From Bullifex porci (GTDB taxonomy: Bacteria; Spirochaetota; Spirochaetia; Sphaerochaetales; Sphaerochaetaceae): DNA of 64,000 bases. The stretch is taken from the NCBI RefSeq assembly GCF_009695635.1, contig NZ_VUNN01000004.1, positions 62,001 to 126,000 on the forward strand, given 5' to 3'. Position numbers and translations under genes: made by a program. Within the stretch, counting starts at the first letter, position 1; every line of letters begins with the position of its first letter. Under the pieces are notes generated by a model. That model searched no databases and had not been told where the DNA came from. It saw nothing but the letters and a program-made list of their open reading frames with translations. Shown here piece after piece: positions 1,364-20,567 of the stretch.

Positions 1364-2551
1364 ATGCATAAGTTAAAAGATATTTACAAAAATGATTCAT
1401 CATATAAAGCATTTCTGCTTTCTCTTTTATGTGTAGGTGTCTCCTATGGGCTATATAAAGGTATTCTCGACAACTACCTAGCTCAGGTTGTTAAAATGGG
1501 AGAATTTGATAGAGGTGTTACAGAATTCTTTAGAGAGCTTCCAGGATTTTTATTAATATTCATTCTAGCCTTTTTAGTTGAAGTCTCTGTTGAAAACACA
1601 TATAAGCTTGGTGCCTTTATAATGCTTATAGGACTTGCTTTAATCGCTGCGCTTCCACCCTCTAAGGTTTTAGTAATCATTGCAATTTGTGTCTATTCAA
1701 CAGGAGAGCACATACAGCTTGGTATGAAGAACACGCTCTCTATTAACTATGCAAATAAAGGGTGTGGCGGTATTTCTATGGGCATTCAAAATGCTATTTC
1801 AAACTTTGGAAATATCGGTGGATATATTATTGTTGCTATTATCTTTGCTCTTCTTTCAAGTATAACAGCATTTAAAACAATATTTATAACATCATTAATC
1901 ATACTTCTTTTAAGCTGTGTAATTAACCAAGCCCTTAAAAGTGATGGAAAAGCTAGAAAGAACAGTAGTCGATTTTACTTCAGAAAAAAGTTTAATAAAT
2001 ACTACATGCTTGAGATATTTTATGGCGCAAGAAAACAAATATTCTTCACCTTTGGACCATATGTATTAATACTATTTTACAAAGCAGATGCATCAGTAAT
2101 AAGCATGCTATTTGCAATTAGTGCTATATGCTGCTTCTTTCTCTCTCCAATAGTTGGAAAGCTAATCGATAAGATTGGATATAAAATAGTAATGGTATCA
2201 GATACTCTTATCTTAATCGTTGTATGCTTCTTCTATGGCTTTGCACACCACTTCCTTCCGATGAATATTGCATTTATAGTTTGCTGTATTAATTACCTTT
2301 TAGATTCAGTAATCTCACTTGCATCAATGGCTAGTAATGTATATGTACAGGATATTTCAGATAACGAAGAGGAAGTAAGAGCTACTATTACTACAGGAAT
2401 TTCAGTTAACCATCTTATTTCTATCCTAATTGCTCTATTTGGTGGTTGGATTTGGCAAGTAACAGGTATAGAAACTCTATTCTCACTCTCTGCTATCTTA
2501 GGTCTTATTAATAGCATCTATGCAGCTACAATAAAGACCTCTAAAGCATAA
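1364..2551 (+). CDS. MFS transporter
   Basis: This is a polytopic membrane protein of about 395 residues with roughly twelve hydrophobic segments and a charged central loop (around KSDGKARKNSSRFYFRKKF), as in major facilitator superfamily carriers. The substrate cannot be told from sequence. An upstream in-frame ATG at 1298 would add 22 polar residues. I prefer 1364 because a good -35/-10 pair ends six bases before it and neither ATG has a ribosome-binding site. The 3' end overlaps the convergent AEC-type gene by 11 bases, so the two transcripts could interfere. The neighbourhood (glycogen synthase, AEC carrier, methyltransferase) gives no functional hint. Confidence 0.8.
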   Translation: MHKLKDIYKNDSSYKAFLLSLLCVGVSYGLYKGILDNYLAQVVKMGEFDRGVTEFFRELPGFLLIFILAFLVEVSVENTYKLGAFIMLIGLALIAALPPSKVLVIIAICVYSTGEHIQLGMKNTLSINYANKGCGGISMGIQNAISNFGNIGGYIIVAIIFALLSSITAFKTIFITSLIILLLSCVINQALKSDGKARKNSSRFYFRKKFNKYYMLEIFYGARKQIFFTFGPYVLILFYKADASVISMLFAISAICCFFLSPIVGKLIDKIGYKIVMVSDTLILIVVCFFYGFAHHFLPMNIAFIVCCINYLLDSVISLASMASNVYVQDISDNEEEVRATITTGISVNHLISILIALFGGWIWQVTGIETLFSLSAILGLINSIYAATIKTSKA

Positions 2552-3446
2552 TAACAAGTAAAGGAATTAAAATAATACTTACCATTATTGAGATACTATT
2601 TACTGTACTAGCAAGGGAAGTATTTCCATTTAAGTCCAGAGTAAATGAAGGGGATGCAGATGATATTGGAGAGAAAAGAACTATCACTGCAGCCTTTCTT
2701 ATCTCATATGAAAATGGGAATGTATTAAAAATAATTAATCCTAAAATAGCTGCTAAGCCATATCTGATTAAAATTACATTTAATACCTTTTTAGTTACAT
2801 TTTTATCAAAGGTTGGCTCAAGCAATAGCCCTATCATAAACATTGCAATTGGACCATTAGCATTAGCAACTAAGGAAGTAAAAGTAAATATTTCAGATGG
2901 AAGCTTTATTCCAACTAGAGCAATTGGAATAAAAATAATATAGCAAACAAAGGATGGAACTCTTAATAGAGGCTTTAACATCGATAGTACATTTACTCTC
3001 TTATTATCGACCATCGCTTTGGTTATTGCGTAATCAAGGCCTAAGCATTGAAATGAGTTACCTGAATCGACTAGACAAACAGTTAACGCACCCTGAGGAC
3101 CTAACATAGAGGATGCAAAAGGGAATGTAAAGCAGCCTATATTATAAGCTGGAAGACAGAGCGTATAGTAAATCTTATCCTCTCTACTTGCATTTCGAGT
3201 AAATAAAAAGCTTATTAATAAAAGAATAAAGTTAGCTGCTAATCCAACTAAGATAAATATAAGTAGCTTTCCAGAAAAGGTAGTTGTACCAAAACTATTT
3301 ATAATTACACATGGAAGTGTAATATTCATCATTACACGTGAAAGTGCATAACCATCTTCCTTTTTAAGTATACCTAACTTCTTTAATGTAAAAGCTATCG
3401 ATACCATTAATAGAAAGGAAATTGCTCGAATTACTATACTTTGCAT
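2541..3446 (-). CDS. AEC family (auxin efflux carrier-like) permease
   Basis: The protein has 301 residues and about ten membrane segments. It shows the AEC-family pattern of two five-helix halves, an N-terminal stretch LKKLGILKKEDGYALSRVMMNITLPCVI, and a second half beginning near LVANANGPIAMFMIGLLLEP. Bacterial members export or import organic acids such as malate or malonate, but the substrate here is unknown. It is divergently transcribed from the FkbM-like gene at 3529, and the two promoters lie within the 82-base gap. The ATG has no Shine-Dalgarno site. Instead TTGACA and CAATAT boxes place the transcript start at the ATG. The stop overlaps the end of the convergent MFS gene. Confidence 0.85.
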   Translation of the reverse strand: MQSIVIRAISFLLMVSIAFTLKKLGILKKEDGYALSRVMMNITLPCVIINSFGTTTFSGKLLIFILVGLAANFILLLISFLFTRNASREDKIYYTLCLPAYNIGCFTFPFASSMLGPQGALTVCLVDSGNSFQCLGLDYAITKAMVDNKRVNVLSMLKPLLRVPSFVCYIIFIPIALVGIKLPSEIFTFTSLVANANGPIAMFMIGLLLEPTFDKNVTKKVLNVILIRYGLAAILGLIIFNTFPFSYEIRKAAVIVLFSPISSASPSFTLDLNGNTSLASTVNSISIMVSIILIPLLVIML

Positions 3447-6014: not shown

Positions 6015-7160
6015 TTAAAGTGCTTCTCTATAGAATTTCTTATATACCTCTTTATCTACAGGAGCAGGATTACATGTGATATGACCACATGTACGGAATA
6101 TTACATCTGCAACATAATCCTCACTAGGAAGCTCTGCAGGAAGATACTTTCTTAGAGAATCTGGAGCACCTACTGCACTTCTAATTCTCTTAACCTCCTT
6201 AATAGCATTCTCAGCATTTTCACGTTGTGTTGCATTTCTATCATATACTCCAAGAGCTCTAGCGATATCAGCATATTTCTTCTCAGCAAAGTCTAAATTG
6301 AACTCCATTGAAGCTGGGAGGAAGATAGCACATGCATCACCATGTGGAACGTGGAATTCACCTCCAATTGGTTGAGCACAGATATGTGCAATACCAATTC
6401 CAGCTGTAATAGCCATACCACCAAAGTAGCTTGCTAATGCCATATTACCACGAGCTTCGATATCTGATGGATCATTGCATGCCTTCTCAAGAGATTGTGA
6501 AATTAATGAAATAGCCTTTAATCCATACATCTCAGTAATTGGAGTTGCATTCTTAGAAACATAAGACTCGATAGCATGAGAAAGAGCATCCATACCTGTT
6601 GCAGCTGTTATTGCCTTTGGAAGTGTTAGTGTCATCTTTGGATCAAGGATAACTACGTCTGCAATCATTGATACATGGTAAAGACTCTTCTTTAAACCAT
6701 TATGAACATTCTTTACTACAGCTGTTTTAGTTCCTTCTGCGCCAGTACCAGAGGTTGTTGGGATAGCTACATAGAAAGGAGATTCCTTAGTTACCTGCTT
6801 TTCACCCATCTGATATTCCTCAACAGAACCACCATTTGTACTTAGCATGTTGATAGATTTTGCTGTATCGATAACGCTACCACCACCAAGAGCAACTGTA
6901 CAGTCACAGCCCTCTTGAAGGAATAAATCTCTACCACCATCAATTACTACAGAATCAGGCTCAGCAACAACCTTATCGTATATTACATAGCTAATACCTG
7001 CGTCCTGTAATAGCTCCTTTATATTGCTAGTAGGAGCTGCTGAAGCACTAAAGGTAACAAAGAAGACTTTCTTTACACCCTGCCATTTTAAAATATCAGG
7101 AAGCTGTTTTACGCTATCCTCACCAAATATTACTCTTCTGTTATTTGTGATTTCCCACAT
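6015..7160 (-). CDS. Iron-containing alcohol dehydrogenase family protein
   Basis: The protein has 381 residues, the usual family length. The NAD(P)-binding motif GGGSVIDTAKSIN is near residue 92. The metal ligands are in MDALSHAIESYVSKNATP (Asp and His) and in HICAQPIGGEFHVPHGDACAIFLP (two His). Members oxidise primary alcohols, 1,2-diols or polyols, or reduce the matching aldehydes. It ends the operon that begins with two sugar ABC permeases (gap 22 bases), so a polyol or sugar-derived alcohol is the likely substrate, but this is inference from position. An AAGGAG ribosome site precedes the ATG. Confidence 0.9.
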   Translation of the reverse strand: MWEITNNRRVIFGEDSVKQLPDILKWQGVKKVFFVTFSASAAPTSNIKELLQDAGISYVIYDKVVAEPDSVVIDGGRDLFLQEGCDCTVALGGGSVIDTAKSINMLSTNGGSVEEYQMGEKQVTKESPFYVAIPTTSGTGAEGTKTAVVKNVHNGLKKSLYHVSMIADVVILDPKMTLTLPKAITAATGMDALSHAIESYVSKNATPITEMYGLKAISLISQSLEKACNDPSDIEARGNMALASYFGGMAITAGIGIAHICAQPIGGEFHVPHGDACAIFLPASMEFNLDFAEKKYADIARALGVYDRNATQRENAENAIKEVKRIRSAVGAPDSLRKYLPAELPSEDYVADVIFRTCGHITCNPAPVDKEVYKKFYREAL

Positions 7161-7182: not shown

Positions 7183-8037
7183 TCAACTCTTAACTGCACC
7201 TGCAGTCATTCCTGCTAGGAAGTACTTTTGACAGCACAAGAAAATAAGTAATACTGGAATAGAGCCCAATACACTCATTGCCATCATCTCATTCCAAACA
7301 TATGCATGCTCACCCATTAGGAGCTGTATACCTACTGGTACAGTTCTCATCTCTGTGCTCTTTGTAAGAGTGAGTGCATATAAGTATTCATTCCAAGTCA
7401 TAATAAAGGTATAAACACCTGTTGCTACGATACCTGGGAGTGAAATAGGAACCAAAAATTGCCAACAAATTCTAAATGGACCACCGCCATCAACCTTAAC
7501 AGCCTCATCAAGAGCCTTTGGTATTGAGTTAAAATATCCAGTCATCATCAAAATACCATAAGGTAAGGTAAATACCATTGAGGTTAAAATTAGAGCCCAC
7601 AAAGTATCATAAATCTTTAATGCAACTATCATTCCAAAGAATGGAATCATAAGTGCGATAGGTGGTACTGCCTGAGTATTAATTACAAACATGTTAACAA
7701 GCTTCTTGCCTGGAAACTCATATCTACTAAAGGCATAGCCAGCTAAGATAGATACTACTAGGGTAGCAATTGTTACAGCGGATGAAACAATAAAGCTATT
7801 TAGGAAGAATCTTAATCTTGTAGATGAGTGAAATACAGTATTATAGGCTTCTGTTGTACCCTGTCGTGGTATAAAGGTCTGAGGTACAGCAAAGATTTCA
7901 CTATTACTCTTTATAGATGTAACGAACATCCATACTATTGGGAACATTACATAAATTAGAGAAATTATTACAAGTATTAATAGAAGGACTCTAAGCATCC
8001 TTTTAGTTTTCTTTATAGAATGAAGTGAGCCTGCCAT
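7183..8037 (-). CDS. Carbohydrate ABC transporter permease (CUT1, MalG-like)
   Basis: The protein has 284 residues and six membrane helices. The cytoplasmic EAA loop LDEAVKVDGGGPFRICWQFLVPIS docks the ATPase subunit. It is the second permease of a CUT1 sugar importer: it starts one base after the stop of the first permease (8039) and precedes the dehydrogenase. No ATPase gene and no binding-protein gene lie in this operon. The nearest candidate binding protein is encoded at 19217-20473 on the same strand, about 10 kb upstream, beside an aldolase and a sugar kinase. The ATPase is probably a shared MsmK/UgpC-type subunit encoded elsewhere. Confidence 0.93.
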   Translation of the reverse strand: MAGSLHSIKKTKRMLRVLLLILVIISLIYVMFPIVWMFVTSIKSNSEIFAVPQTFIPRQGTTEAYNTVFHSSTRLRFFLNSFIVSSAVTIATLVVSILAGYAFSRYEFPGKKLVNMFVINTQAVPPIALMIPFFGMIVALKIYDTLWALILTSMVFTLPYGILMMTGYFNSIPKALDEAVKVDGGGPFRICWQFLVPISLPGIVATGVYTFIMTWNEYLYALTLTKSTEMRTVPVGIQLLMGEHAYVWNEMMAMSVLGSIPVLLIFLCCQKYFLAGMTAGAVKS

Positions 8038-8038
8038 A

Positions 8039-8947
8039 TTAGTCCTCCCTTACCTTCTGTGCTTTAACATAGAAAATTGACAATACTATTGACATCAACA
8101 AAATAATTACTGAAGCTGCGGAAGCTGTTGAGAAGTCTAAAATGTTATATGCCTTTTTATAAATATAGGAGCCTAATACCTCTGTAGCTGTAATTGGACC
8201 ACCTCCAGTAGTTGACCAAACAAGTGCAAATACTCTCATTGTCCAAATTAAGTCGAGCATGATAATACTAAGCATTACAGGCTTTAGCTGAGGTAATGTA
8301 ATATAAATAAACTTTTCAAAGCCATTACACCCATCGATAGTAGCTGCTTCATAGTAATCCTTTGGAATACCCTGTAAGGCAGCGAGTATTGTTACCATAA
8401 AATATGGGTATCCTGACCAAATGTTGATAAAAATAAGTGAAGGCATCGCAGTTTTTACTTCACTTAGCCATGCAATCTTGGTACTCATAAGGCCCATATT
8501 TGATAATATGTAGTTTAATATTCCATCAGGGTTGAGGATTAACCTCCATAAAATAGCTACAATAGTTACAGTTAATACCCATGGCATAATAAAGCATACT
8601 CTTAATAATCCCTTTAAGAAGCTAGGAATTAAATCTGTATTTAGAAGAAGTGCAAAAGCGAGTCCAATAATCATATGGAAGAATACAGAGATTATTGTAT
8701 AAACGAGTGTATTCTTTACAGATATCCAAAATACTGGATCAGCAAGGATTGTTTTGTAATTTTTAAATCCTACAAAATGTGATTCCTTTACTGTTATTAC
8801 CTTATCCATAAATGAGTAGTAAATAACTGTAATAATAGGATAAAGCATTAATACTATTAAAAGAATTACTGCAGGCAGAATGAACCAATATGGTACAAAG
8901 CTTATCTTTTTTCTTTTAATCAGAGATGTATTAACATTTTCTGACAT
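8039..8947 (-). CDS. Carbohydrate ABC transporter permease (CUT1, MalF-like)
   Basis: The protein has 302 residues, six helices after a short cytoplasmic N-terminus, and the EAA motif YYEAATIDGCNGFEKFIYITLPQL. It pairs with the permease just downstream. An AGGAGG ribosome site lies seven bases before the ATG. It is the first gene of its operon and is divergent from the ADP-dependent kinase at 9173. The 225-base gap between them is very AT-rich and should hold both promoters. A partly similar copy of the DeoR-type site (TGGTTAACTT, minus strand, near 9073-9082) is there, but the match is too loose to rely on. Confidence 0.93.
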   Translation of the reverse strand: MSENVNTSLIKRKKISFVPYWFILPAVILLIVLMLYPIITVIYYSFMDKVITVKESHFVGFKNYKTILADPVFWISVKNTLVYTIISVFFHMIIGLAFALLLNTDLIPSFLKGLLRVCFIMPWVLTVTIVAILWRLILNPDGILNYILSNMGLMSTKIAWLSEVKTAMPSLIFINIWSGYPYFMVTILAALQGIPKDYYEAATIDGCNGFEKFIYITLPQLKPVMLSIIMLDLIWTMRVFALVWSTTGGGPITATEVLGSYIYKKAYNILDFSTASAASVIILLMSIVLSIFYVKAQKVRED

Positions 8948-9172
8948 AATACCTCCTAAAAATTGAATTAGATTTTAACCAATATCCTTCTCACATTAAG
9001 ACTAATTGTTCTTAAATATAAAATATGATTATTTATAATATTTTTCTTGCGTTATTATATATATTTGATAATAAGTTAACCATGATATTATCATTTTTCT
9101 TGAATATTACTCAAAAGTTATTTTATAATCTCCATATAAGTACTAAAACATGTTTAAAATTGGAGGTATAAA

Positions 9173-10384
9173 ATGAGTAGTCCATCTATTGCATTAGGCA
9201 TGAATAATGGTATTGATTTTGAAATTGAATGGGACGATAAAGGAGTAAGTACTTTAGTTCAAGAGGTAGGTTTAGCTTTTGAAGAAATAAAAAAAGTAAC
9301 TGTAGTATCTTCATTGAGAGATTTACTAACCTCAATATGCTATCAGGTGATGAAGGGAGAAGGCACCTCAGTCCACGTTACAGACATTAAATACAACCTT
9401 GAGTTCTCATCTCACTTTAAATATAGAACTACAATTGGTGGAGCTGGTAGTAGAGCTGCAATAGTATTGTCTAAGCTAGATATACTCTCTTACCTTCATT
9501 TAGTAAGTATAAATAAGGAAACAAGGGAATTGCTTCCAAAAGGTGTTAAATATTATTGTGGCAACACACAAGATACATTCTACCCTCATTTAATAATCCA
9601 ATTTCCTAAAAATGCTGTAATAACTGGGAATGATTGGCAGATAAAATCTCCTCGTGCAAATAGAGCAATGTACCTACATGATCCAGATTTACAAACAATG
9701 CCTCTCTCATATGATTTCTTTAAGGAGGGTGGCAAAAGTAAGGTTTTATTAATTGGCGGCTTTACTACAATTCCTGATATAGAAAAATCGTTAGTAAAAG
9801 CAGATGAAGTATTTACACTTATCGAAAAGTTCGTCGATAAGGATTGTGAAATCTACTATGAGGACTCATGTCCTCCTCATGGAATAAGACCTGAGCTAAT
9901 AAAGGTTTGGACAAAAATAGCTGCAAAGGTAGATGTTTTTGGAATGAATGAGGATGAGCTTCAGGAGCATATTGGAAGGAAAATAAATCTTCTGGACCCT
10001 AACGAGGTATTATTGGCTATAAAGGAGCTTGCTGAGCTTATCCCAGCTAAACGCTATGTAATTCACTCAAGATATTGGGCTATTTGCTATGCAAAGGATG
10101 CTTCAAATTATCATGATGCTTTATTAGAGGCTACAAAGCTTGCAACTACCAGATTCCGCTTAGGAGATAATATTTCTCCATCTGATTTAGATGAAACTGC
10201 TAAGCTAAAGGATGATCCTGAGGGTGGTCCTTTTGCTTTAGAGTTTAATAAGCTATTTAGTAAAGACGTTGCAATTTGCGTACCTGCATATGAGGTTACT
10301 CAAGATAAGGTAACAACTATAGGACTTGGAGATACCTTTGTTGCAGGCTTCTTAAAGCAACGTGCAGATGATTTAAACAAGTAG
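9173..10384 (+). CDS. ADP-dependent phosphofructokinase/glucokinase family protein
   Basis: The protein has 403 residues and resembles the ADP_PFK_GK family of the ribokinase superfamily, known best from Thermococcales and methanogens and from vertebrate ADPGK. Visible motifs are GGAGSRA (89-95, sugar-binding region), YYEDS (228-232, where archaeal enzymes have HxE), the metal-binding NxxE motif in MNEDE (258-262), and GLGD (384-387) with the catalytic Asp near the C-terminus. It would phosphorylate a hexose or hexose phosphate using ADP as donor. A GGAGG ribosome site precedes the ATG. It is divergent from the sugar permeases, which suggests a catabolic role. The His-to-Tyr change in HxE is worth noting. 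The family call rests on motifs and length only. Confidence 0.8.
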   Translation: MSSPSIALGMNNGIDFEIEWDDKGVSTLVQEVGLAFEEIKKVTVVSSLRDLLTSICYQVMKGEGTSVHVTDIKYNLEFSSHFKYRTTIGGAGSRAAIVLSKLDILSYLHLVSINKETRELLPKGVKYYCGNTQDTFYPHLIIQFPKNAVITGNDWQIKSPRANRAMYLHDPDLQTMPLSYDFFKEGGKSKVLLIGGFTTIPDIEKSLVKADEVFTLIEKFVDKDCEIYYEDSCPPHGIRPELIKVWTKIAAKVDVFGMNEDELQEHIGRKINLLDPNEVLLAIKELAELIPAKRYVIHSRYWAICYAKDASNYHDALLEATKLATTRFRLGDNISPSDLDETAKLKDDPEGGPFALEFNKLFSKDVAICVPAYEVTQDKVTTIGLGDTFVAGFLKQRADDLNK

Positions 10385-10426: not shown

Positions 10427-10458
10427 ATCCTTCTTGGGTTTTCCAGGAAGGATTTTTT
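10427..10458 (+). terminator. Rho-independent terminator of the ADP-dependent kinase gene
   Basis: Stem ATCCTTCTTGG (10427-10437) paired with CCAGGAAGGAT (10443-10453), then a run of T. Confidence 0.8.
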
Positions 10459-10709: not shown

Positions 10710-11873
10710 ATGATTAACAACAATCAAATTATAAGAGCAATCGGAATCGACGTCCATAAGGATTCATACTCAATTTCTGCATTTGATCCGCAAACAACTA
10801 ACTTTAGTGCAGAAACTACAGTTGCAGCAGACTCGAAGAGTGTCATTACCTATCTCAAGAGGTTAAAGAAAGAAATAGCAGTGCCTGTAACAATTGAAAT
10901 AGGATATGAGGCTGGTCCAACAGGTTTTGGACTCAAGAGAGATCTTGAAAAAGCAGGATACACATGTCACGTAATGGCGCCAACAAGTATCTATCGCCCT
11001 GCTGCAGGTGTAAAGGTAAAGACTGATGCAAAGGATGCAAGAACTCTTGCGAAGGCTGTCTATTGGGGCTCTTACTCTGAAGTCGTTCCTCTATCTGAAG
11101 AAGATGAATCCTATAGGGATTACATCAGAATGCGTGATGACAGGAAGGAAGCACTTAAGAAAGCAAAGCAGAACCTTTTGTCATTTCTCTTGAGAAAAGG
11201 CAGAAAGTATAGTGGAAATCCTTGGACACAGAAGCATCTCTCTTGGCTCAAGAAGCAAGAATTTGAGAGTCCAATAGATAAGCTTACAATCCAGGAATAC
11301 CTGAATGAGGTCACAAGGCTGAATGATGCCATTGTGCTACTTGATGCCAAGATAGAGGAATTTTCAAGAGAAGACAGATACAAAGATAAGGTTGATAAGC
11401 TTAGATGCTTTGCAGGAATAGATACGCACGTAGCCATGGTCATGATTACAGAGATTGGTGACTATAATAGGTTTACATCGGCAGAAGCTTTTTCTTCTTA
11501 CCTAGGATTATGTCCAGGAGAACATTCAAGTGGTAAAAGCACTCAAAAAGGTGGAATAACAAAAGCAGGCAACAGTCACTGTAGAAAGCTACTATGTGAA
11601 AGTGCAAATTCAATTGCACGTACAAATCCATACAAAAAATCCAAGAGGCTACTTGAAAGGCAAAAAGGAATATCTCCAGATATCATTTCATATGCAGACA
11701 GGGGATCAACAAGGATCAAGAGTAAGTACTTCAACCTTGTAGAGTATGGCAAGAACGCCAATGTTGCAAAGGCAGCATGTGCTCGTGAGCTCGCTTGTTT
11801 CATCTGGGGAATGATGACTGAACATATGGAATCAAGGGGTGAGATAAGGGAAACTGTACAACAGGTTATTTAA
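10710..11873 (+). CDS. IS110 family transposase
   Basis: The protein has 387 residues. The N-terminal DEDD (RuvC-like) domain starts at IRAIGIDVHKDSYS (Asp14) and continues through IEIGYEAGPTGFGL and VKTDAKDARTLAKAV, which supply the acidic residues. The C-terminal Transposase_20 domain holds LGLCPGEHSSGKSTQKGG and ITKAGNSHCRKLL, the region of the catalytic serine. These recombinases work with a non-coding bridge (seeker) RNA encoded in the element. The reading frame is intact with a good AAAGGAG ribosome site, so the protein could be active. It is followed by a structured non-coding stretch rather than by another gene. Confidence 0.92.
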   Translation: MINNNQIIRAIGIDVHKDSYSISAFDPQTTNFSAETTVAADSKSVITYLKRLKKEIAVPVTIEIGYEAGPTGFGLKRDLEKAGYTCHVMAPTSIYRPAAGVKVKTDAKDARTLAKAVYWGSYSEVVPLSEEDESYRDYIRMRDDRKEALKKAKQNLLSFLLRKGRKYSGNPWTQKHLSWLKKQEFESPIDKLTIQEYLNEVTRLNDAIVLLDAKIEEFSREDRYKDKVDKLRCFAGIDTHVAMVMITEIGDYNRFTSAEAFSSYLGLCPGEHSSGKSTQKGGITKAGNSHCRKLLCESANSIARTNPYKKSKRLLERQKGISPDIISYADRGSTRIKSKYFNLVEYGKNANVAKAACARELACFIWGMMTEHMESRGEIRETVQQVI

Positions 11874-12436: not shown

Positions 12437-14200
12437 TTATAAATCTATATATGCACCCTTCATTGGGCTGGCTGCGAATCGAGAGAAAATACCAAGAGCA
12501 CCTTTATCATATCTAGGCTTTTTAGGAATATACTTTGCCTTTCTTTCTGCAAGAATTTTATCAATTTCCTCAAGAGATTTTCTTTCGCCCTTAATGCCTA
12601 CAATATTTAGCTTTCTTTCATCAACATCAATTTCGATTAAGTCTCCCTCTTCTACTAGAGCTATAGGACCGCCGTCGATAGCTTCAGGACTACAGTGCCC
12701 AATTACAGGACCTGTAGATGCACCAGAAAAGCGACCATCTGTAATAAGAGCAATGCTTCTTCCTAGCTCCTTATCACTACTAATAGCCTCACTAGTATAG
12801 AACATCTCAGGCATTCCACTTCCCTTAGGACCCTCATACCTAATAAATACAGCATCACCCTTTTCTACTCTATGCTCTAATACAGCAGCTAAGCACTCCT
12901 CCTCACTATCAAATGGGCGAGCTCTAAGTACTGCTTTAAACATCTCCTTTGGACATGCAGTATGCTTAATTACAGCACCCTCAGGTGCAAGATTACCTCT
13001 TAATATAGCAATACTACCACCTGTTCCAATTGGCTTATCATATGGTCTAATAATATCCTCTCTCTTAATATTCACACCATATCTTTGATTAAAAGCATGT
13101 AGATGTTCCTCACATTCTTCAAAATAATGTGACTTCTCAAGCTCCTCTAGATTTTCACCAAGAGTCTTTCCAGTTACAGTAAGTACATCAAGATTCAGAT
13201 GACTCTTTATTTCCTCCATGATTCTTGGAACACCACCCGCATAGTAGAAGGTTTCTGCAGGCCATCTTCCCGCTGGTCTAATATCTAATAGATAGCGCGC
13301 ATTACGATGAAGGCGATCGAAATCATCACCAGTTATTGTTATTCCTAGCTCATGAGCTATTGCAGGGATATGAAGTAAACAGTTTGTACTACCAGATATA
13401 GCAGCATGAACTAAAATTGCATTTTCAAAGCTCTTTGCAGTTACTATATCAGAAGGTCTTAAGCCACCCTTTAATGTATTCCTTACAACCTGTCTACCAG
13501 CATTGTAAGCAACCTTCTCAAGGCTACTTGAGATTGATGGCATTAAAGCTGAGCCAGGTAGAGCTAAGCCTAAGGACTCTGCCATTATTTGCATTGTTGA
13601 TGCTGTACCAATAAAGGAACAAGCACCACACGATGGACAAGCATTGTGCTTTGCCCAATCGAGCTTAGAGGAGTCAATTTCACCTCTTGAATACATTGCA
13701 CTATACATACCTAATTGCTCAAGGGTGAGCATATCAGGACCAGCATTCATTGTTCCACCTGGAACTACTATTGAAGGAATATTAACCCTAGCTAATCCCA
13801 TCAAATTACCAGGAAGCCCCTTATCACATGATGAGATAAAAACACCGCCATCAAATGGAGTTGCTTGAGCTTGAATTTCTATCATATTTGCGATCATCTC
13901 TCGGGAAGAGAGTGAATAATTTATTCCATCTGTACCTTGGCTCTCTCCATCGCACATATCTGTACAAAAGTATCTAGCACCAAAGCCACCCTCATCCATT
14001 ATTCCCTTCCTTACCTGCTCAACTAATCTATTTAAATGAGCACTACCAGGATGGCTATCACCATAGGTACTCTCTATGAATATCTGTGGTTTACTTAAGT
14101 CCTCTTTTTTCCACCCAGAGCCAATCCTCAAAGGATCAAGCTCAGGAGAAAGCTTTCTCATTTTCTGACTAATTAATTCCATATGTTTCTCCTTTTTCAT
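12437..14200 (-). CDS. IlvD/Edd family Fe-S dehydratase (sugar-acid or dihydroxy-acid dehydratase)
   Basis: The protein has 587 residues. The cluster-binding cysteines are in YFCTDMCDGESQGTDG, FISSCDKGLPGNL and HNACPSCGACSFIGTA, and the C-terminal RFSGASTGPVIGHCSPEA motif is present. The family dehydrates 2,3-dihydroxy acids (IlvD), 6-phosphogluconate (Edd) or aldonic acids such as xylonate. The early YGDSHPGSAHL stretch resembles the sugar-acid branch more than classical IlvD. It overlaps the isomerase gene upstream by four bases (ATGA), so the two are co-translated. No other isoleucine/valine genes are nearby, and a DeoR regulator sits next door, so I favour sugar-acid catabolism. Which substrate is open. 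Confidence 0.85.
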   Translation of the reverse strand: MKKEKHMELISQKMRKLSPELDPLRIGSGWKKEDLSKPQIFIESTYGDSHPGSAHLNRLVEQVRKGIMDEGGFGARYFCTDMCDGESQGTDGINYSLSSREMIANMIEIQAQATPFDGGVFISSCDKGLPGNLMGLARVNIPSIVVPGGTMNAGPDMLTLEQLGMYSAMYSRGEIDSSKLDWAKHNACPSCGACSFIGTASTMQIMAESLGLALPGSALMPSISSSLEKVAYNAGRQVVRNTLKGGLRPSDIVTAKSFENAILVHAAISGSTNCLLHIPAIAHELGITITGDDFDRLHRNARYLLDIRPAGRWPAETFYYAGGVPRIMEEIKSHLNLDVLTVTGKTLGENLEELEKSHYFEECEEHLHAFNQRYGVNIKREDIIRPYDKPIGTGGSIAILRGNLAPEGAVIKHTACPKEMFKAVLRARPFDSEEECLAAVLEHRVEKGDAVFIRYEGPKGSGMPEMFYTSEAISSDKELGRSIALITDGRFSGASTGPVIGHCSPEAIDGGPIALVEEGDLIEIDVDERKLNIVGIKGERKSLEEIDKILAERKAKYIPKKPRYDKGALGIFSRFAASPMKGAYIDL

Positions 14201-15246
14201 ACCTTAGGTCCGTGAAATATATAAATTAAACTATCTTCCTTAGCACTTATTAGAGCTTCATCATTTGAAGCAGAAATAAATAGTTGCTCTCCACCCTTAT
14301 AGGACTCATCATCAATAAATCCCTTTCCATTCATTATATATAATCCTATAAAGGATTTAGCTGAAGAAAGCTTATATTGATAACCCTTCTTTAGCTTTAA
14401 AGATTCCATTGAAAAGCAATCGGTCATATCATAAGAGATAAGAGATGATAGCTCATATCCAATATTGCTAGATATAATATTTTTCACACAAAGAGCTGTT
14501 TTAAATAGCTCCTCCTCCGATGTACCATTGTAATCAAAGCAATCAAACATCTTATAAAAGCCAAGTCCCTGATGGCAGAGAATATCATCAATTACAAGAC
14601 CACTAGGAGTTGTTCTCTCAACTCTTATTGTGTAATCAGTTGGCTCCTGGATTTCCATTAGGAAGGTATCCTTACCAATAGCATGAGGAACACCTCCTCT
14701 TATTAAAAATGTATCTCCTATCTTTGCCTTTACATGGTGTAAGCAGGAAAGCATTCCTGAAATATCTTGAACATCAAAGTAGTTTTTCCACTCATCTCTA
14801 GTTACCCCTTCCTTAAAACCAATGTAGATATTTGGATCATCTCCACCAAGGATATGCCAGCACTCTGTTTTACCAAATTGTGAATTAAATAGGCTTCTAG
14901 CCTTCTCCTTATTTGGATGAACCTGAACAGATAGTCGCTCAGCTGAATCAATAAGCTTTATTAAAACTCCAGGAGTACTACCATATTTCTTATAATGTGT
15001 ACTTCCTAGCATTCTTCTTGGATCTTCTTCAATAATTGATTTTAAAGTAATACCACTTTCTAAAGCATGAGAAAGACCCTCCTCAGGTCCTAATGAATGA
15101 GAGCCATTATTAGCAGTTACACAAGATATTATCCATTCCTCTGGGAAATGTGATATCTTAGGATTTTCTTTGCCCTCTAGTTCATCAAGTTTCTTTCCAC
15201 CACAATAAGTTCTCCACGCTCTAGGGTTATCTAGCTTAATTATCAT
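14197..15246 (-). CDS. manA: Class I mannose-6-phosphate isomerase
   Basis: The protein has 349 residues of the cupin-type phosphomannose isomerase family. Zinc-site motifs are QVHPNKEKARSLFNSQFGKTECWHIL (His and Glu) and the later GGVPHAIGKDTFLMEIQEPTDYTIRVER (His and substrate-binding residues). It interconverts mannose-6-phosphate and fructose-6-phosphate, feeding mannose to glycolysis. It is the first gene of a two-gene operon with the dehydratase and is divergent from the DeoR regulator at 15397. A GGAG ribosome site precedes the ATG. The promoter region carries the TAAC-N5-GTTA site at 15263-15283, so DeoR control is likely. Related isomerases can act on other sugars, so the substrate is probable rather than certain. 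Confidence 0.85.
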   Translation of the reverse strand: MIIKLDNPRAWRTYCGGKKLDELEGKENPKISHFPEEWIISCVTANNGSHSLGPEEGLSHALESGITLKSIIEEDPRRMLGSTHYKKYGSTPGVLIKLIDSAERLSVQVHPNKEKARSLFNSQFGKTECWHILGGDDPNIYIGFKEGVTRDEWKNYFDVQDISGMLSCLHHVKAKIGDTFLIRGGVPHAIGKDTFLMEIQEPTDYTIRVERTTPSGLVIDDILCHQGLGFYKMFDCFDYNGTSEEELFKTALCVKNIISSNIGYELSSLISYDMTDCFSMESLKLKKGYQYKLSSAKSFIGLYIMNGKGFIDDESYKGGEQLFISASNDEALISAKEDSLIYIFHGPKV

Positions 15247-15396: not shown

Positions 15397-16164
15397 ATGA
15401 TTAGAAGTGAACGAATTGATAAGATGGAGGAATATATAGTCAAGAATGGATTTGTTTCACTAGATAATCTTTCAAAGGAGTTTGGTATCTCACTAAACAC
15501 TATTAGGAGAGATGTTTCAGAGCTTCTATCAAATGGTAAATTAAAGAAAGTATATGGGGGTGTATCAGCTATTAAGGAGCAATCACCACAAAGCACATTA
15601 ACAACGGTTTCAGAAAGAAGGATGAGAAATTTAGAACAAAAGGAGCGTATTGCTAAATATGCTTCTACCTTTGTAGAGGATAACTCAACTATCTTTGTCG
15701 ACTCTGGTTCTACTACAGCTTTGATGATTCCTTATTTAGCTTTAAAGAAGAATATTACAATAATTACCCATAGCCTCACTATTATGGCAGAAGCAGCGAA
15801 ATATGATAGCTTAAATTTAATTGGAATAGGAGGAATATACCAACAATCTAGTACATCCTTCATCGGAAATACAGTAATAGATGCTATGCAGGATATGTCC
15901 TTTGATATAGTATTTATGGGAACTACTAGTATTATGGAGGAAGGTCTTGCAACTAATATTTATTTAGAGGCAGAGATAAAGAAAAATATTGCTGTACATG
16001 CAAAAAAGGTTTTCCTATTAGCTGACCATAGTAAATGGGAAAAGAGAGCCGCCTTCAGCTTTTGTAGCTATGATTCTATAGACTATCTTATTACAGATGA
16101 AAATTTACCAGAGAATATTAGTAACAAAATGAAGGATAAGAATGTATCGATAATTGTGGTATAG
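15397..16164 (+). CDS. DeoR family transcriptional regulator
   Basis: The protein has 255 residues. The N-terminal winged helix contains GFVSLDNLSKEFGISLNTIRR (about residues 16-36) and runs on through DVSELLSNGKLKKVYGG. The C-terminal DeoR sensor domain follows, with IFVDSGSTTALMIPYL, the sugar-phosphate isomerase-like phosphate-binding segment. Such proteins repress sugar-catabolism operons and are released by a phosphorylated sugar intermediate. The gene is divergent from manA and the dehydratase, and the 150-base gap holds candidate operators. An AAGGAG ribosome site is present. The AraC-type regulator follows after a four-base gap. Confidence 0.9.
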   Translation: MIRSERIDKMEEYIVKNGFVSLDNLSKEFGISLNTIRRDVSELLSNGKLKKVYGGVSAIKEQSPQSTLTTVSERRMRNLEQKERIAKYASTFVEDNSTIFVDSGSTTALMIPYLALKKNITIITHSLTIMAEAAKYDSLNLIGIGGIYQQSSTSFIGNTVIDAMQDMSFDIVFMGTTSIMEEGLATNIYLEAEIKKNIAVHAKKVFLLADHSKWEKRAAFSFCSYDSIDYLITDENLPENISNKMKDKNVSIIVV

Positions 16165-16168
16165 TGCT

Positions 16169-16981
16169 ATGTTTTCAATTGCTCATCTAACCACATCGGA
16201 GCTGATGCCACTACACCTAAAGGGTAAAAGATTTCGTATCCTATTTAATATAGGAGGTGAAGTTAGTGTTATTTTTAATCATAAGGTGGTTCAATTTCCA
16301 AAGTATGCAATACTTTTAATGGATCAAAATGATTCATTACAAATGAAATTTAGTGAAAAATTAGATCGCTTTGAGCTTTCATGTAGTGTAGATAGCATTA
16401 TGATAGCATCGGACGATAACACTAATTTAATGAAGTGCTTCTTAGAGAAGAAATACGCAAATGAAATATTTATTTGTCCAAGTGAGGAGGAGTCATTGCT
16501 CCTTCTCTCCTTGTTTTCAAAGCTAGAAAGCTTAACAGATAGTGATGAATATGGCTCCTCTCTTTATAAAAAGCTTCTATTTACAGAATGCTTACTTCGA
16601 ATAAATATAATATTTAATAAATCCTCTACTATATTATCTAAATCAAATCTAACACTTTCAGAAACTCTTCAAAAAATAATTGATTACATCAGAAGTGACT
16701 ACTGGGATGAAATCACTCTAGATAGTCTTTCAATAAAGTTTAGAATTAGTAAAAATAATTTGTGTAGTCTCTTTGCCGAGAATCTAGGCTGCTCTCCAAT
16801 TCAATTTTTAATTAATTACAGGCTAACTATCGCTCAAGATTTATTAAAAACAAAGATTACTACAGAAGAGGTTTGTGGAGAGGTTGGCTTTAATAACTAC
16901 TCACACTTTTCAAGGACCTTTAAAAAGCACGTTGGCTTAAGCCCAAAACAATATCAAAAGAAATACAATTTAAACAATTAG
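16169..16981 (+). CDS. AraC family transcriptional regulator
   Basis: The protein has about 270 residues. The C-terminal double helix-turn-helix runs from LQKIIDYIRSDYWDEITLDSL to VCGEVGFNNYSHFSRTFKKHVGLSPKQYQ, the AraC signature. The N-terminal ~150 residues are a poorly conserved sensor domain. It is co-transcribed with the DeoR gene. A TTG at 16154 that overlaps the DeoR stop is a possible alternative start; I chose the ATG at 16169, four bases after that stop, though no clear ribosome site is seen for either. Its 3' end overlaps the convergent FGGY kinase by four bases. Its targets are not evident, but the flanking sugar operons are likely. Confidence 0.85.
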   Translation: MFSIAHLTTSELMPLHLKGKRFRILFNIGGEVSVIFNHKVVQFPKYAILLMDQNDSLQMKFSEKLDRFELSCSVDSIMIASDDNTNLMKCFLEKKYANEIFICPSEEESLLLLSLFSKLESLTDSDEYGSSLYKKLLFTECLLRINIIFNKSSTILSKSNLTLSETLQKIIDYIRSDYWDEITLDSLSIKFRISKNNLCSLFAENLGCSPIQFLINYRLTIAQDLLKTKITTEEVCGEVGFNNYSHFSRTFKKHVGLSPKQYQKKYNLNN

Positions 16982-18285
16982 TTGGCTAATAGCTTAGCTA
17001 AGTCATTAAATACACTCTCATTTCCACTTCCATTAATAGCTGCACATAGTGCTCCAAAGGCACTCACCTCTGTAATTTTAAATGGAACTATTTCATGTTT
17101 AAGGTAGTTTGCCTTAAGATTCATCAATATATCATTTTTTATAGCTAGTCCCCCAGCAACATACAAAGGCTTAGCTTGAGCAAAGCCAAGTAGGTTTTTA
17201 TAAACTAGCATACTTTGCTTAGCTAGGTAGTGATAAATACTCATTATTAAATCACATTCGTTAGCCATAATATTTAGGTTTGTTATATTACATAGGCCAA
17301 AGGGAATATTTGCTGATGTGAAATTTCCTCCAACCTCCAAGTCAAATGCAAGATTAAATTCCTTTTTGCTCTTTATTTTACTATTAATTTGGTAGATATC
17401 ATCACAACCAATAGTTTTCATAAAGTAGGTTAATAGTGAGCCATATCTATTTAAACCTCTAAATACAATAAACTCTTCATTTTCAAAGCCATTAACAATA
17501 CCACCCCCTCTGCTATCATATGTGTTGTTCCCCTCTAAAGAGGAATTAAATTTAGTTAAGAGAGATATTGTACTGCTAGTACCCATAGAGTCATATATTA
17601 TTTCGTCATTATTAAATATCTTAGAAACACCATATAGGCCTAAAATATGGTCATGACCACCGACTGCATAGGTTACTTTATTATTATATGAAGAATAGGA
17701 GCCTATAGGCTTTATAGGAGCAAAGGGTTGTATTGATAATTTATCGTATAATTTATCAATCCAGGATTTAGAAAAGACATTATAGGCTCCACTTCTACTT
17801 GCCTGAGAAGGGTCATAAAAGGCAGCTCCTGTCTTTCTAAATACTTGATAGTGACAAATGGGAAGATAGAAGTCTGGCCTCTCTGGTAATTGCCTGTTGT
17901 ACCAGAGAATTTTTTCAATAGCTAGAAGCCCATTAGGGATAATTCCTAAGGAAGAATATGAGGTATTTTCATTAAGTATTGCTCTCTCCTTTAATGTTGC
18001 AGAGGCACCCCTTTGGTCCCAAAATATAGGATTTAAAATAGCTTTCCCATTTTTTATTGGAACTACGCTCTCTCCGACAGAAGAAAATGCAACTGCATTT
18101 GCTTTTGACGAAGTAAGCATCTCATCTATTAAATTATTTAATTTTTCAAGGTCAAAATATAAAAGCCCATCTATTGTGAGCTTTGGAGTTGGACATGATG
18201 ACATCATTACGATGTCACCATGTTCGTTCATTGCTAATATCTTTGTATTTGTTGAACCAATATCAATTCCAGCAAAAGTCATCAC
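16978..18285 (-). CDS. FGGY family carbohydrate kinase
   Basis: The protein has 435 residues with the actin-like ATPase fold: GIDIGSTNTKILAMNEHGD (phosphate 1) near the N-terminus, NPIFWDQRGAS (substrate loop), VGGHDHILGLYG (phosphate 2/sugar site) and YVAGGLAIKNDILM (adenosine motif). It is somewhat short for the family (usually about 490-520). FGGY kinases phosphorylate ketoses, polyols or aldonates such as xylulose, fuculose or gluconate. The gene overlaps the aldolase upstream by four bases (ATGA), so kinase and aldolase are made together. With the binding protein in the same operon this looks like uptake, phosphorylation and cleavage of one sugar. Confidence 0.88.
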   Translation of the reverse strand: MMTFAGIDIGSTNTKILAMNEHGDIVMMSSCPTPKLTIDGLLYFDLEKLNNLIDEMLTSSKANAVAFSSVGESVVPIKNGKAILNPIFWDQRGASATLKERAILNENTSYSSLGIIPNGLLAIEKILWYNRQLPERPDFYLPICHYQVFRKTGAAFYDPSQASRSGAYNVFSKSWIDKLYDKLSIQPFAPIKPIGSYSSYNNKVTYAVGGHDHILGLYGVSKIFNNDEIIYDSMGTSSTISLLTKFNSSLEGNNTYDSRGGGIVNGFENEEFIVFRGLNRYGSLLTYFMKTIGCDDIYQINSKIKSKKEFNLAFDLEVGGNFTSANIPFGLCNITNLNIMANECDLIMSIYHYLAKQSMLVYKNLLGFAQAKPLYVAGGLAIKNDILMNLKANYLKHEIVPFKITEVSAFGALCAAINGSGNESVFNDLAKLLAN

Positions 18286-19145
18286 TGAGCCATTTTTCCA
18301 GCAGAACCAAATACATCAATCTTGTGCTCAACAATTTCTTGTGTCTTGATTCTTACTTGGTGCTGAATCTTTCTTACATCACCATGTGTTGCTTCTGCAA
18401 AGAGTGCCTTCTGAACATCAAAGTTACCTGTGATCTTAAGCTCTGTACCAACATTAATCTTTGTGATACCAAGAGAAATAGCCTTCTTGAAATCCTCATC
18501 AGGTACACCAGAGCCACCATGTAATACTAAGCAGCAATCTGTAATAGCTCTAATTTCAGCAATTCTCTCAAAATCCAATTTAGGCTTTTGCTTATAGAAT
18601 CCATGTGCAGTACCTACTGCAATTGCTAAAGCGTCAATACCTGTTGCTTTAACGAATTCGAGAGCCTGCTTTGGCTGAGTAAATAGAGCCTTTCTCTCAT
18701 CAACAACAATATCCTCTTCAACGCCTCCGATATGACCAAGCTCTGCTTCAACAGATACGCCAAATCTCGATGCATAATCTACAACCTTACATGTTAATTC
18801 AACATTTTGGTCATAAGGTAATGCAGAGCCATCAACCATTACTGAGGTAAAGCCATAATCGATACAACGCTTAATTCTTTCAAAATCACTGCAGTGATCA
18901 AGATGGCAAACAACATCAATCTCAGGATATTCATGAGTTAAGGTTTCGATACATCTAATACACATCTCCTCACCCATTTCATCCATTGTAAATACAGGAG
19001 GGCTAATAATTACAGGACTGTTTTTAGCCGCAGCTCCTTGCATAATACCCTGGATACTTGATAAATCCGGAAAGTTAAAAGCTCCAACAGCATAACCGCC
19101 CTTTTGAGCCTTTTTTAGAACATAATCCATTCTTACTAAAGACAT
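18282..19145 (-). CDS. Class II ketose-bisphosphate aldolase (FbaA/GatY/KbaY type)
   Basis: The protein has 287 residues, a TIM barrel. Active-site segments are VVCHLDHCSDFERIKRC (catalytic Asp, first zinc His), VEAELGHIGGVEED, AVGTAHGFYKQKPKLDF (zinc His) and LVLHGGSGVPDEDF (zinc His and phosphate loop). The enzyme cleaves fructose- or tagatose-1,6-bisphosphate, or a related ketose phosphate, to dihydroxyacetone phosphate and an aldehyde. It lies between the binding-protein gene (71-base gap) and the FGGY kinase. A GGAGG-like ribosome site precedes the ATG. The length and the catabolic context favour the GatY/KbaY-like branch over housekeeping FBP aldolase, but this cannot be settled by eye. 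Confidence 0.9.
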   Translation of the reverse strand: MSLVRMDYVLKKAQKGGYAVGAFNFPDLSSIQGIMQGAAAKNSPVIISPPVFTMDEMGEEMCIRCIETLTHEYPEIDVVCHLDHCSDFERIKRCIDYGFTSVMVDGSALPYDQNVELTCKVVDYASRFGVSVEAELGHIGGVEEDIVVDERKALFTQPKQALEFVKATGIDALAIAVGTAHGFYKQKPKLDFERIAEIRAITDCCLVLHGGSGVPDEDFKKAISLGITKINVGTELKITGNFDVQKALFAEATHGDVRKIQHQVRIKTQEIVEHKIDVFGSAGKMAQ

Positions 19146-19216: not shown

Positions 19217-20473
19217 TTACTGCCAAACTTCCATTACGGACTTTTGAGCCTCGGCTGCAGCCTGCTGAGGAGTTAATTCACCTGTGAAAATCTTCTGAAC
19301 CTGAGTAGCAATTCTTTCACCAATGTTATCTGAGTTAGGGATAGCATTAAATTCATTTGTTAAAGCACTTCTCTGGAAGATTTCGAATGCTTCAGCATAT
19401 CTTGGGTTAGAGTTATTTACCCAGTCAGGAGTTGCATTCTTATTACCAGGGAAGCCATTAGCTGTGCTAGAAAGCTTCTGGTTATTTGCCTTTGTTACTA
19501 AGAACTCGATGAGCTTGAATGCTTCTTCAGGGTGCTTTGTATTTGCGCTAATACCGATAGCCCAGTCAGCATTTCTGATACCTCTAGTTCCTTCATACCC
19601 ATCCTCGGCAGGAACATCTGTGATTACATAGTTTAGGTTTGGTGCTCTATTTGTAAGAGTATTGATACATGCTAGAGAGTTGAACATAAATGCTGCTCTA
19701 TTGTTTGCAAATTCTTCAACTTTATCCTGTTCTTTCTTGGATAATGCTCCAGGAGAAATAGCACCTGCATCAAGTAAGTCTTTTTCGAATTCTAGAGTCT
19801 TAATAAAATTAGGATTTGTGAGATTAGGCTGACCATTCTCAATCATCTTGTATCCACTTCCCCAATAAAGTGTCATAGTCTCAATTCTTACACCAGTTGA
19901 ACTCTGAATAGGCATTGGAAGAACCCATCCATACTGGCTCTTTGAAGCATCTGTACAAGCTTTTGCCATTTCTGCAAATTCTGATCTTGTCTTAGGTGGT
20001 TCTGTGTAACCAGCTGCATTTAAGAGATCCATGTTTACAAATAATGGGTAAACAAATGATACTACTGGTACTGATTTAGCATCATTATCTACAGAATAAA
20101 TATTTGTAAGCTCTGATTTTACTGAAGAAGCATCTAGATATTTCTGAATGCTACCAAGAGCGCCCATCTTACTTACATCATAAATCCACTTACCATCAAC
20201 ACCAACAACATCGCTTAATGTACCTGTTGCAGCACCTGATACAATCTGCTCATAATAGCTTGCGCTTGGAACAGAAACGAGCTTAACTTTAATTCCAGGA
20301 TTCTGAGCTTCGAACTCATCAAGTAATGATCTAAGGAAACCTTCTGGAAGTTCAGGATCCCACCACTGAAGGAATTCAATCTCAACATTACCCTTTGTTT
20401 CACTAGCACCTTGTGCAAATACTGAGCCAAGAGCTGTGATAACGATTAATACAGCTACTAAAAATTTCTTCAT
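19217..20473 (-). CDS. Sugar ABC transporter substrate-binding protein
   Basis: The protein has about 418 residues and belongs to the CUT1 binding-protein family (extracellular type 1 domain). It starts MKKFLVAVLIVITALGSVFA, a signal peptide with an AxA-like cleavage site followed by QGASE. The mature part has the typical EIEFLQWWDPELPEGF and RAAFMFNS segments. A TTG 15 bases upstream lies inside the GGAGG ribosome site and is not the start. It heads an operon with the aldolase and FGGY kinase. No permease is in this operon, and the orphan permease pair at 7183-8947 is the obvious partner. The upstream region holds the 20568-20588 operator copy. Confidence 0.93.
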   Translation of the reverse strand: MKKFLVAVLIVITALGSVFAQGASETKGNVEIEFLQWWDPELPEGFLRSLLDEFEAQNPGIKVKLVSVPSASYYEQIVSGAATGTLSDVVGVDGKWIYDVSKMGALGSIQKYLDASSVKSELTNIYSVDNDAKSVPVVSFVYPLFVNMDLLNAAGYTEPPKTRSEFAEMAKACTDASKSQYGWVLPMPIQSSTGVRIETMTLYWGSGYKMIENGQPNLTNPNFIKTLEFEKDLLDAGAISPGALSKKEQDKVEEFANNRAAFMFNSLACINTLTNRAPNLNYVITDVPAEDGYEGTRGIRNADWAIGISANTKHPEEAFKLIEFLVTKANNQKLSSTANGFPGNKNATPDWVNNSNPRYAEAFEIFQRSALTNEFNAIPNSDNIGERIATQVQKIFTGELTPQQAAAEAQKSVMEVWQ

Positions 20474-20567
20474 ATAATCTGCCTCCAAATTTTTGTTTAA
20501 TCATAGCTTATACATACTTCATCCATAAATTTGACTTATTATAACTTTTTTCATGTGATATTATATA

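Follow-up and report, generated by a model that had tools for sequence, protein, structure and literature searches.

Positions 9173-10384 of the 64,000-nucleotide stretch of the Bullifex porci genome analysed here (the window) encode a protein that, by profile and by fold, is a member of the ADP-dependent glucokinase/phosphofructokinase family (PF04587). The protein falls in a bacterial branch of this family that has apparently not been described so far. Members of the branch occur in at least five phyla, next to genes for a sugar importer and an aldolase, and this setting points to a pathway of sugar breakdown. We suggest, as a plausible but tentative reading, that the kinase would use ADP to phosphorylate an unphosphorylated ketose, within an isomerase-kinase-aldolase route resembling fucose and rhamnose breakdown. 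The finding is broader than a first-pass annotation of this DNA had held, and the mechanism is probably a different one.

Family and fold of the kinase

The gene, read directly in the sequence, is an open, intact and full-length reading frame with an ATG start (Table 1), and is the sole PF04587 gene in the 2.42 Mb draft genome. The first-pass annotation had assigned its product to the ADP-dependent kinases from short motifs and protein length, and the profile search bore this out: PF04587 scored 80.6 bits against a gathering cut-off of 27, with residues 5-392 aligned to profile positions 2-426 of 430. The same profile matched all 11 members of the bacterial branch that were scanned. Scores for the ADP-glucokinase equivalog NF010642 (54 bits, cut-off 387) and the ADP-phosphofructokinase equivalog TIGR02045 (20 bits, cut-off 408) were far below threshold, so that the kinase lies within the family but corresponds to neither named enzyme.

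An AlphaFold2 model built with 11 relatives (mean pLDDT 91.3) is predicted to have the two-domain fold of ADP-glucokinases and ADP-phosphofructokinases (ADP-PFKs). When the model was compared with solved structures, 17 entries for ADP-dependent kinases ranked first (Z 27.9-38.6), whereas the nearest entry outside the family reached 23.7 and ordinary ribokinases about 24. The best match was the ADP-glucokinase of Pyrococcus furiosus (1ua4, Z 38.6), followed by 5od2 from M. jannaschii (36.9), 4b8s from T. litoralis (36.1), the ancestral ADP-PFK AncMsPFK with F6P (6xio, 34.3), the ADP-PFK of P. horikoshii (1u2x, 31.8) and the mouse enzyme (5ccf, 29.0).

The sugar-uptake locus

The kinase gene is divergent from ABC sugar permeases, as had been noted, and these are two genes of the CUT1 type; the PfkA-type phosphofructokinase recognized earlier in the window is likewise an ordinary member of its family (Table 1). 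An IS110 element sits between the kinase and the remaining half of the locus, and is missing at this place in the related locus L010. The ManA-like isomerase scored 79 bits with TIGR00218, under the cut-off of 116. Its gene overlaps that of the IlvD/EDD-type dehydratase by 4 nt (12437-15246); the dehydratase, through which a sugar-acid branch is possible, also lies between the two halves of the locus and is absent from L010. It is also possible that the iron-type alcohol dehydrogenase, whose gene follows the permeases, reduces the aldehyde product of the aldolase; none was seen in L010. The binding protein was considered as a guide to the substrate. The solved structures nearest to it score 38-78 bits and span very different ligands (sulfoquinovosyl-glycerol, maltose and sorbitol among them), which is not diagnostic.

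Table 1. Features of the kinase locus and the PfkA-type gene elsewhere in the window, with approximate numbers of kinase-bearing stretches (of 91) in which homologues are linked to the kinase
Feature	Coordinates	Strand	Support	Linked homologues
Iron-type alcohol dehydrogenase, nearest lactaldehyde reductase (FucO)	6015-7160	-	TIGR02638 288 bits, under cut-off 523	
CUT1 sugar ABC permease 2	7183-8037	-	PF00528 62.6 bits	63/91
CUT1 sugar ABC permease 1, divergent from kinase	8039-8947	-	PF00528 66.7 bits	80/91
Likely ribosome-binding site GGAGGT	9162-9167	+	5 nt upstream of kinase ATG, read in sequence	
ADP-dependent sugar kinase family protein (PF04587), 403 aa	9173-10384	+	Profile, AlphaFold2 model and fold match	
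Terminator-like hairpin 3' of kinase gene	10427-10453	+	12-pair stem then T run; pattern match only	
IS110-family transposase	10710-11873	+	PF02371 and PF01548	
IlvD/EDD-type dehydratase	12437-14200	-	PF00920 363.7 bits	
ManA-like cupin isomerase	14197-15246	-	PF20511 29.1 bits, cut-off 22	31/91
DeoR-family regulator	15397-16164	+	PF00455 and PF08220	60/91
AraC-family regulator	16154-16981	+	PF12833; AraC-like gene also in L010	
FGGY-family sugar kinase	16978-18285	-	PF00370 45.4 bits, PF02782 31.4 bits; counterpart in L010	
Class II ketose-phosphate aldolase	18282-19145	-	PF01116 321.6 bits; nearest tagatose-bisphosphate aldolase AgaY	77/91
Sugar ABC substrate-binding protein	19217-20488	-	PF01547 118.2 bits	81/91
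PfkA-type phosphofructokinase	25930-27255		NF005301 663 bits, cut-off 400	

Relatives in other bacteria

The view that this family is mainly archaeal and animal needs amending. A single-sequence scan of genome contigs gave no relatives, but an alignment-based scan yielded 305 stretches encoding them, and all 80 of those listed are bacterial. Hosts among the matches listed include Microbacterium, Arthrobacter, Agreia, Cellulomonas, Anaerolineae, Treponema, Ruminiclostridium, Blautia and a Trueperaceae, with Spirochaetaceae, Treponema and Pleomorphochaeta as the spirochaete records. In all, 87 further bacterial homologues were collected from Spirochaetota, Actinomycetota, Chloroflexota, Bacillota and Deinococcota. 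The distribution is patchy: a homologue was found in 8 of 139 genomes of the window's own taxonomic family and in 5 of 393 genomes of a phylum sample (the window's counted), and the PF04587 domain in 10 of 150 genomes from the Microbacterium galbinum family.

A quick tree built from 92 sequences splits the 88 bacterial proteins with full support from four archaeal-type references, the depth of this split being uncertain as the references are few and the branches long. A recent archaeal origin was rejected, since all 88 fall on one side of the long branch. The window protein groups with L010 and L011 of its own family (support 99), and the copies from its own genus (L014, L015) are placed elsewhere. 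The patchy distribution suggests transfer of the kinase gene among bacteria.

A 2025 review gives ribokinase-fold ADP-dependent kinases for archaea only, and its sole bacterial ADP-dependent PFK entry has the unrelated PfkA fold (PMC12965863). One open paper sought PF04587 in CPR bacteria and reported none, and the main text of an omics paper on Clostridium termitidis does not mention an ADP-dependent kinase. No paper on a bacterial operon with a PF04587 kinase was found in a search of open papers.

Active-site residues

The window kinase was compared with the other bacterial homologues (88 in total, including the window protein); residue numbers given for AncMsPFK are those of PMC7948494. Position 66 corresponds to ancMT E72 and AncMs E90, and is also anchored by 5k27 and 5kkg, two solved structures (E72A) that differ at precisely that letter. 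The motifs read earlier are indeed present: GGAGS at 89-93, NEDE (NxxE) at 259-262 and GLGD at 384-387, with YYE instead of HxE at 228-230.

Arg164, Glu230 (HxE), Asn259 and Glu262 (NxxE), His298 and Asp387 (GxGD) are invariant in all 88. The counterpart of Arg164 in AncMs, R206, is essential, and its Ala mutant is essentially dead (PMC7948494). It had been proposed that YYE might alter metal binding. For Mg-ADP, the residues named as essential are the Glu of NxxE and the Glu of HxE, not the His (PMC6028617), and both are retained throughout the branch. The His itself occurs in none of the 88, being replaced by Tyr in 50 (Tyr228 in the window), Phe in 33 and others, with Leu, Ile or Val rare, in 5. 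The missing His thus marks a variant branch, not exclusion from the family, and the proposal is not supported. ADP is the predicted phosphoryl donor.

In ADP-PFK, the 6-phosphate is bound by K179, N181 and R212 (AncMsPFK), and Ala mutants of these residues raise the KM for F6P about 200- to 1000-fold (PMC7948494). Their counterparts in the window kinase are Tyr137, His139 and Asp170, and the ligand set occurs in none of the 88 homologues: the K179 position is mostly Asp or Tyr, that of N181 is His in all 88, and that of R212 is Asp in 78 and Asn in 10. His139 and Asp170 are the glucokinase-type residues at the specificity positions N181 and R212. A second glucokinase residue, Glu66, is kept in 82 of the 88; the six exceptions have Ser (the window and L010) or Gly. 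No PFK, glucokinase or bifunctional enzyme among the references shows the combination Ser66/Tyr137/His139/Asp170, and the earlier suggestion that specificity differs from that of known enzymes is probably right. Counting from the first Gly of the GG motif, Arg94 lies five residues on. It is present in 88 of 88 members of the branch and in none of the four archaeal-type references.

A conserved gene module

Most members of the branch share one kind of module, made up of a CUT1 sugar ABC transporter, a class II ketose-phosphate aldolase and the kinase, to which a cupin-type sugar isomerase and a regulator of the DeoR or RpiR family are often added. Linkage was counted over 91 kinase-bearing stretches, in which four genomes were seen twice, and the numbers in Table 1 are approximate as gene calling was crude in G+C-rich loci; an RpiR regulator is linked in 12 of the 91. 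The order binding protein-permease-permease-aldolase-kinase is common to Chloroflexota, Actinomycetota, Bacillota and Deinococcota. A cupin of the D-lyxose isomerase family adjoins the kinase in four genomes (L012, L013, L051 and L076), and many loci, among them most of those in Chloroflexota, have no isomerase near the kinase. In minimal modules no other sugar kinase is linked. Most module aldolases are named as members of the bisphosphate-aldolase family; the Zn ligands and the catalytic Asp of class II aldolases are conserved in 77-78 of 78, including the window enzyme.

In L012 (761-7055) another ABC system for sugar uptake borders the kinase module, and after it come the genes of two large proteins, both unclustered, of 532 and 573 aa.

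Pairing of kinase and aldolase

L010 (51% identity) has the same gene set as the window: FGGY kinase, aldolase, binding protein, AraC and DeoR regulators, ManA-like protein, and permeases divergent from the kinase. In class II aldolases, the Arg of the DPRK motif would hold the 6-phosphate of the substrate. No confirmation of this role was found in open papers. Among the module aldolases this Arg is retained only in the window and L010, and elsewhere the position is Asn, Ser, Met, Leu, Tyr, Gly or Asp. The window enzyme, in which the motif reads DVRK, matched 1gvf at 230.7 bits.

Kinase residue 66 agrees with the type of aldolase in all 74 pairs: Glu66 occurs with an aldolase lacking the Arg in 69, Gly66 with a GGKIYD type in 3, and Ser66 with the Arg in 2. 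As few independent lineages or events are involved, this apparent co-variation is suggestive only. Overall distances among all module genes correlate at 0.78-0.89, as expected of any co-inherited operon, and the kinase-aldolase correlation is no higher than that with the transporter; the pair is therefore not singled out by this measure. Blautia schinkii DSM 10518 (L092, 6782-12100) carries two kinase-aldolase pairs, one Glu/no-Arg and one Gly/GGKIYD, which offers a natural comparison of specificity.

The window holds a small subtype with a Ser66 kinase, an added FGGY kinase and an aldolase with the bisphosphate-type Arg, in which two phosphorylations are possible. In L010, a PfkB-family kinase (2364-3407) adjoins the FGGY kinase and is a third sugar kinase there.

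Proposed route and alternatives

In the general module, the ABC importer would take up an aldose or a ketose, and the cupin isomerase (ManA-like or D-lyxose-isomerase-like), where present, would yield the ketose. The kinase would then move the beta-phosphate of Mg-ADP onto the free ketose, most likely at O1, leaving AMP, and the class II aldolase would cleave the phosphorylated ketose to dihydroxyacetone phosphate and an aldehyde. The analysis demonstrates family, fold, catalytic residues, the missing 6-phosphate ligands and gene linkage; ADP as donor, O1 as target, the order of steps and the sugar are inferences. Since minimal modules have no second linked kinase, free sugar in and an aldolase-ready 1-phosphate out would be the simplest reading. 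In the window subtype, with its Ser66 kinase, FGGY kinase and bisphosphate-type aldolase, both ends of the sugar may receive a phosphate before the aldolase cuts it. Such a bisphosphate route is possible because of the family names of most module aldolases and the Arg of the window enzyme.

The glucokinase-like pocket also fits an O6 kinase of an aldose. The enzyme could be an ADP-dependent glucokinase or mannokinase that phosphorylates an imported aldose at O6, the ManA-like protein then giving a ketose-6-phosphate for ordinary glycolysis. The nearest fold, the residues at 139 and 170, Glu66 in most of the branch and the ManA-like gene in 31 stretches all agree with this. Glu66 is lost in the window protein, however, the ManA-like proteins are under the curated cut-off for mannose-6-phosphate isomerase, and a dedicated aldolase, linked in 77 of the 91 stretches, would be superfluous for glycolysis; we regard this reading as rather unlikely.

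The first-pass annotation favoured a kinase of a ketose-6-phosphate, whether fructose-6-phosphate or another, and the ketose-1,6-bisphosphate so made would suit the window aldolase, which resembles the tagatose-1,6-bisphosphate aldolase AgaY and keeps the Arg of DVRK. The FGGY kinase and the ManA-like isomerase could provide the ketose-6-phosphate, and Ser66 resembles the Ala of the ADP-PFK 1u2x at the same position. None of the three ADP-PFK 6-phosphate ligands is present, though, which makes such an enzyme improbable and a phosphofructokinase-type substrate unlikely for the window kinase, on the residues compared here; that the branch-specific Arg94 might substitute for these ligands is speculative.

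Little probability attaches, too, to a kept fold that takes its phosphate from ATP, PPi or an NDP other than ADP, or that acts on an unusual acidic or sulfonated sugar bound by Arg94, as the ADP-kinase set (Arg164, NxxE, HxE-Glu, GxGD) is fully intact. In favour of such a reading, sequence does not reveal the donor with certainty, every member of the branch has Arg94 beside the GG motif, and a PPi-using ribokinase-family kinase is known (PMC5931981).

Comparison with known systems

Archaeal ADP-glucokinases (1ua4, 4b8s) share with the window kinase the fold, the catalytic Asp, NxxE, the HxE Glu, the essential Arg and His/Asp at N181/R212. They differ in sequence (17-18% identity), and the window protein has Tyr for the HxE His, Ser66 for Glu, the branch-specific Arg94 and Gln143, and an uptake and aldolase module. 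Archaeal ADP-PFKs (1u2x, 6xio) are alike in family, fold, catalytic residues and, in 1u2x, a small residue at the glucokinase-Glu position, but the window kinase is without Lys179, Asn181 and Arg212. The animal ADP-glucokinase (mouse 5ccf) is of the same family and fold, but has an extra N-terminal helical part (PMC6028617) and no operon.

The L-fucose and L-rhamnose pathways (FucI-FucK-FucA, RhaA-RhaB-RhaD) have the same isomerase-kinase-aldolase logic as the ketose kinase route preferred here, and the window includes a FucO-like reductase. All three core enzymes of those pathways belong to families other than those of the module. Sulfo-EMP2 (SqvD, SqiK, SqiA) also joins an isomerase and a kinase to a class II aldolase (PF01116) whose substrate is a ketose-1-phosphate, but its kinase is PF00365 and its isomerase the FucI-like SqvD (PMC9594981), neither of which is linked here. 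It was considered because of the class II aldolase and rejected, as the linked kinases are PF04587 and FGGY and the linked isomerase is ManA-like.

Implications

It is conceivable, although we hold this less firmly than the ketose kinase reading itself, that several phyla share an undescribed route for the breakdown of one or more sugars, in which an AMP-forming, ADP-dependent PF04587 ketose-1-kinase works with a cupin isomerase and with a class II aldolase that co-varies with it; the window would be a bisphosphate variant of this route. The ADP-dependent kinase family would gain new substrates through a bacterial branch that has its own operon, and the natural variants at Glu66, His139, Asp170 and Arg94 would help to test how specificity evolved. 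The finding would also establish a new route for sugar in bacteria that are common in soils, plants and the gut, and with cultured hosts such as Microbacterium, Arthrobacter, Agreia, Blautia schinkii and Ruminiclostridium this route would be directly testable.
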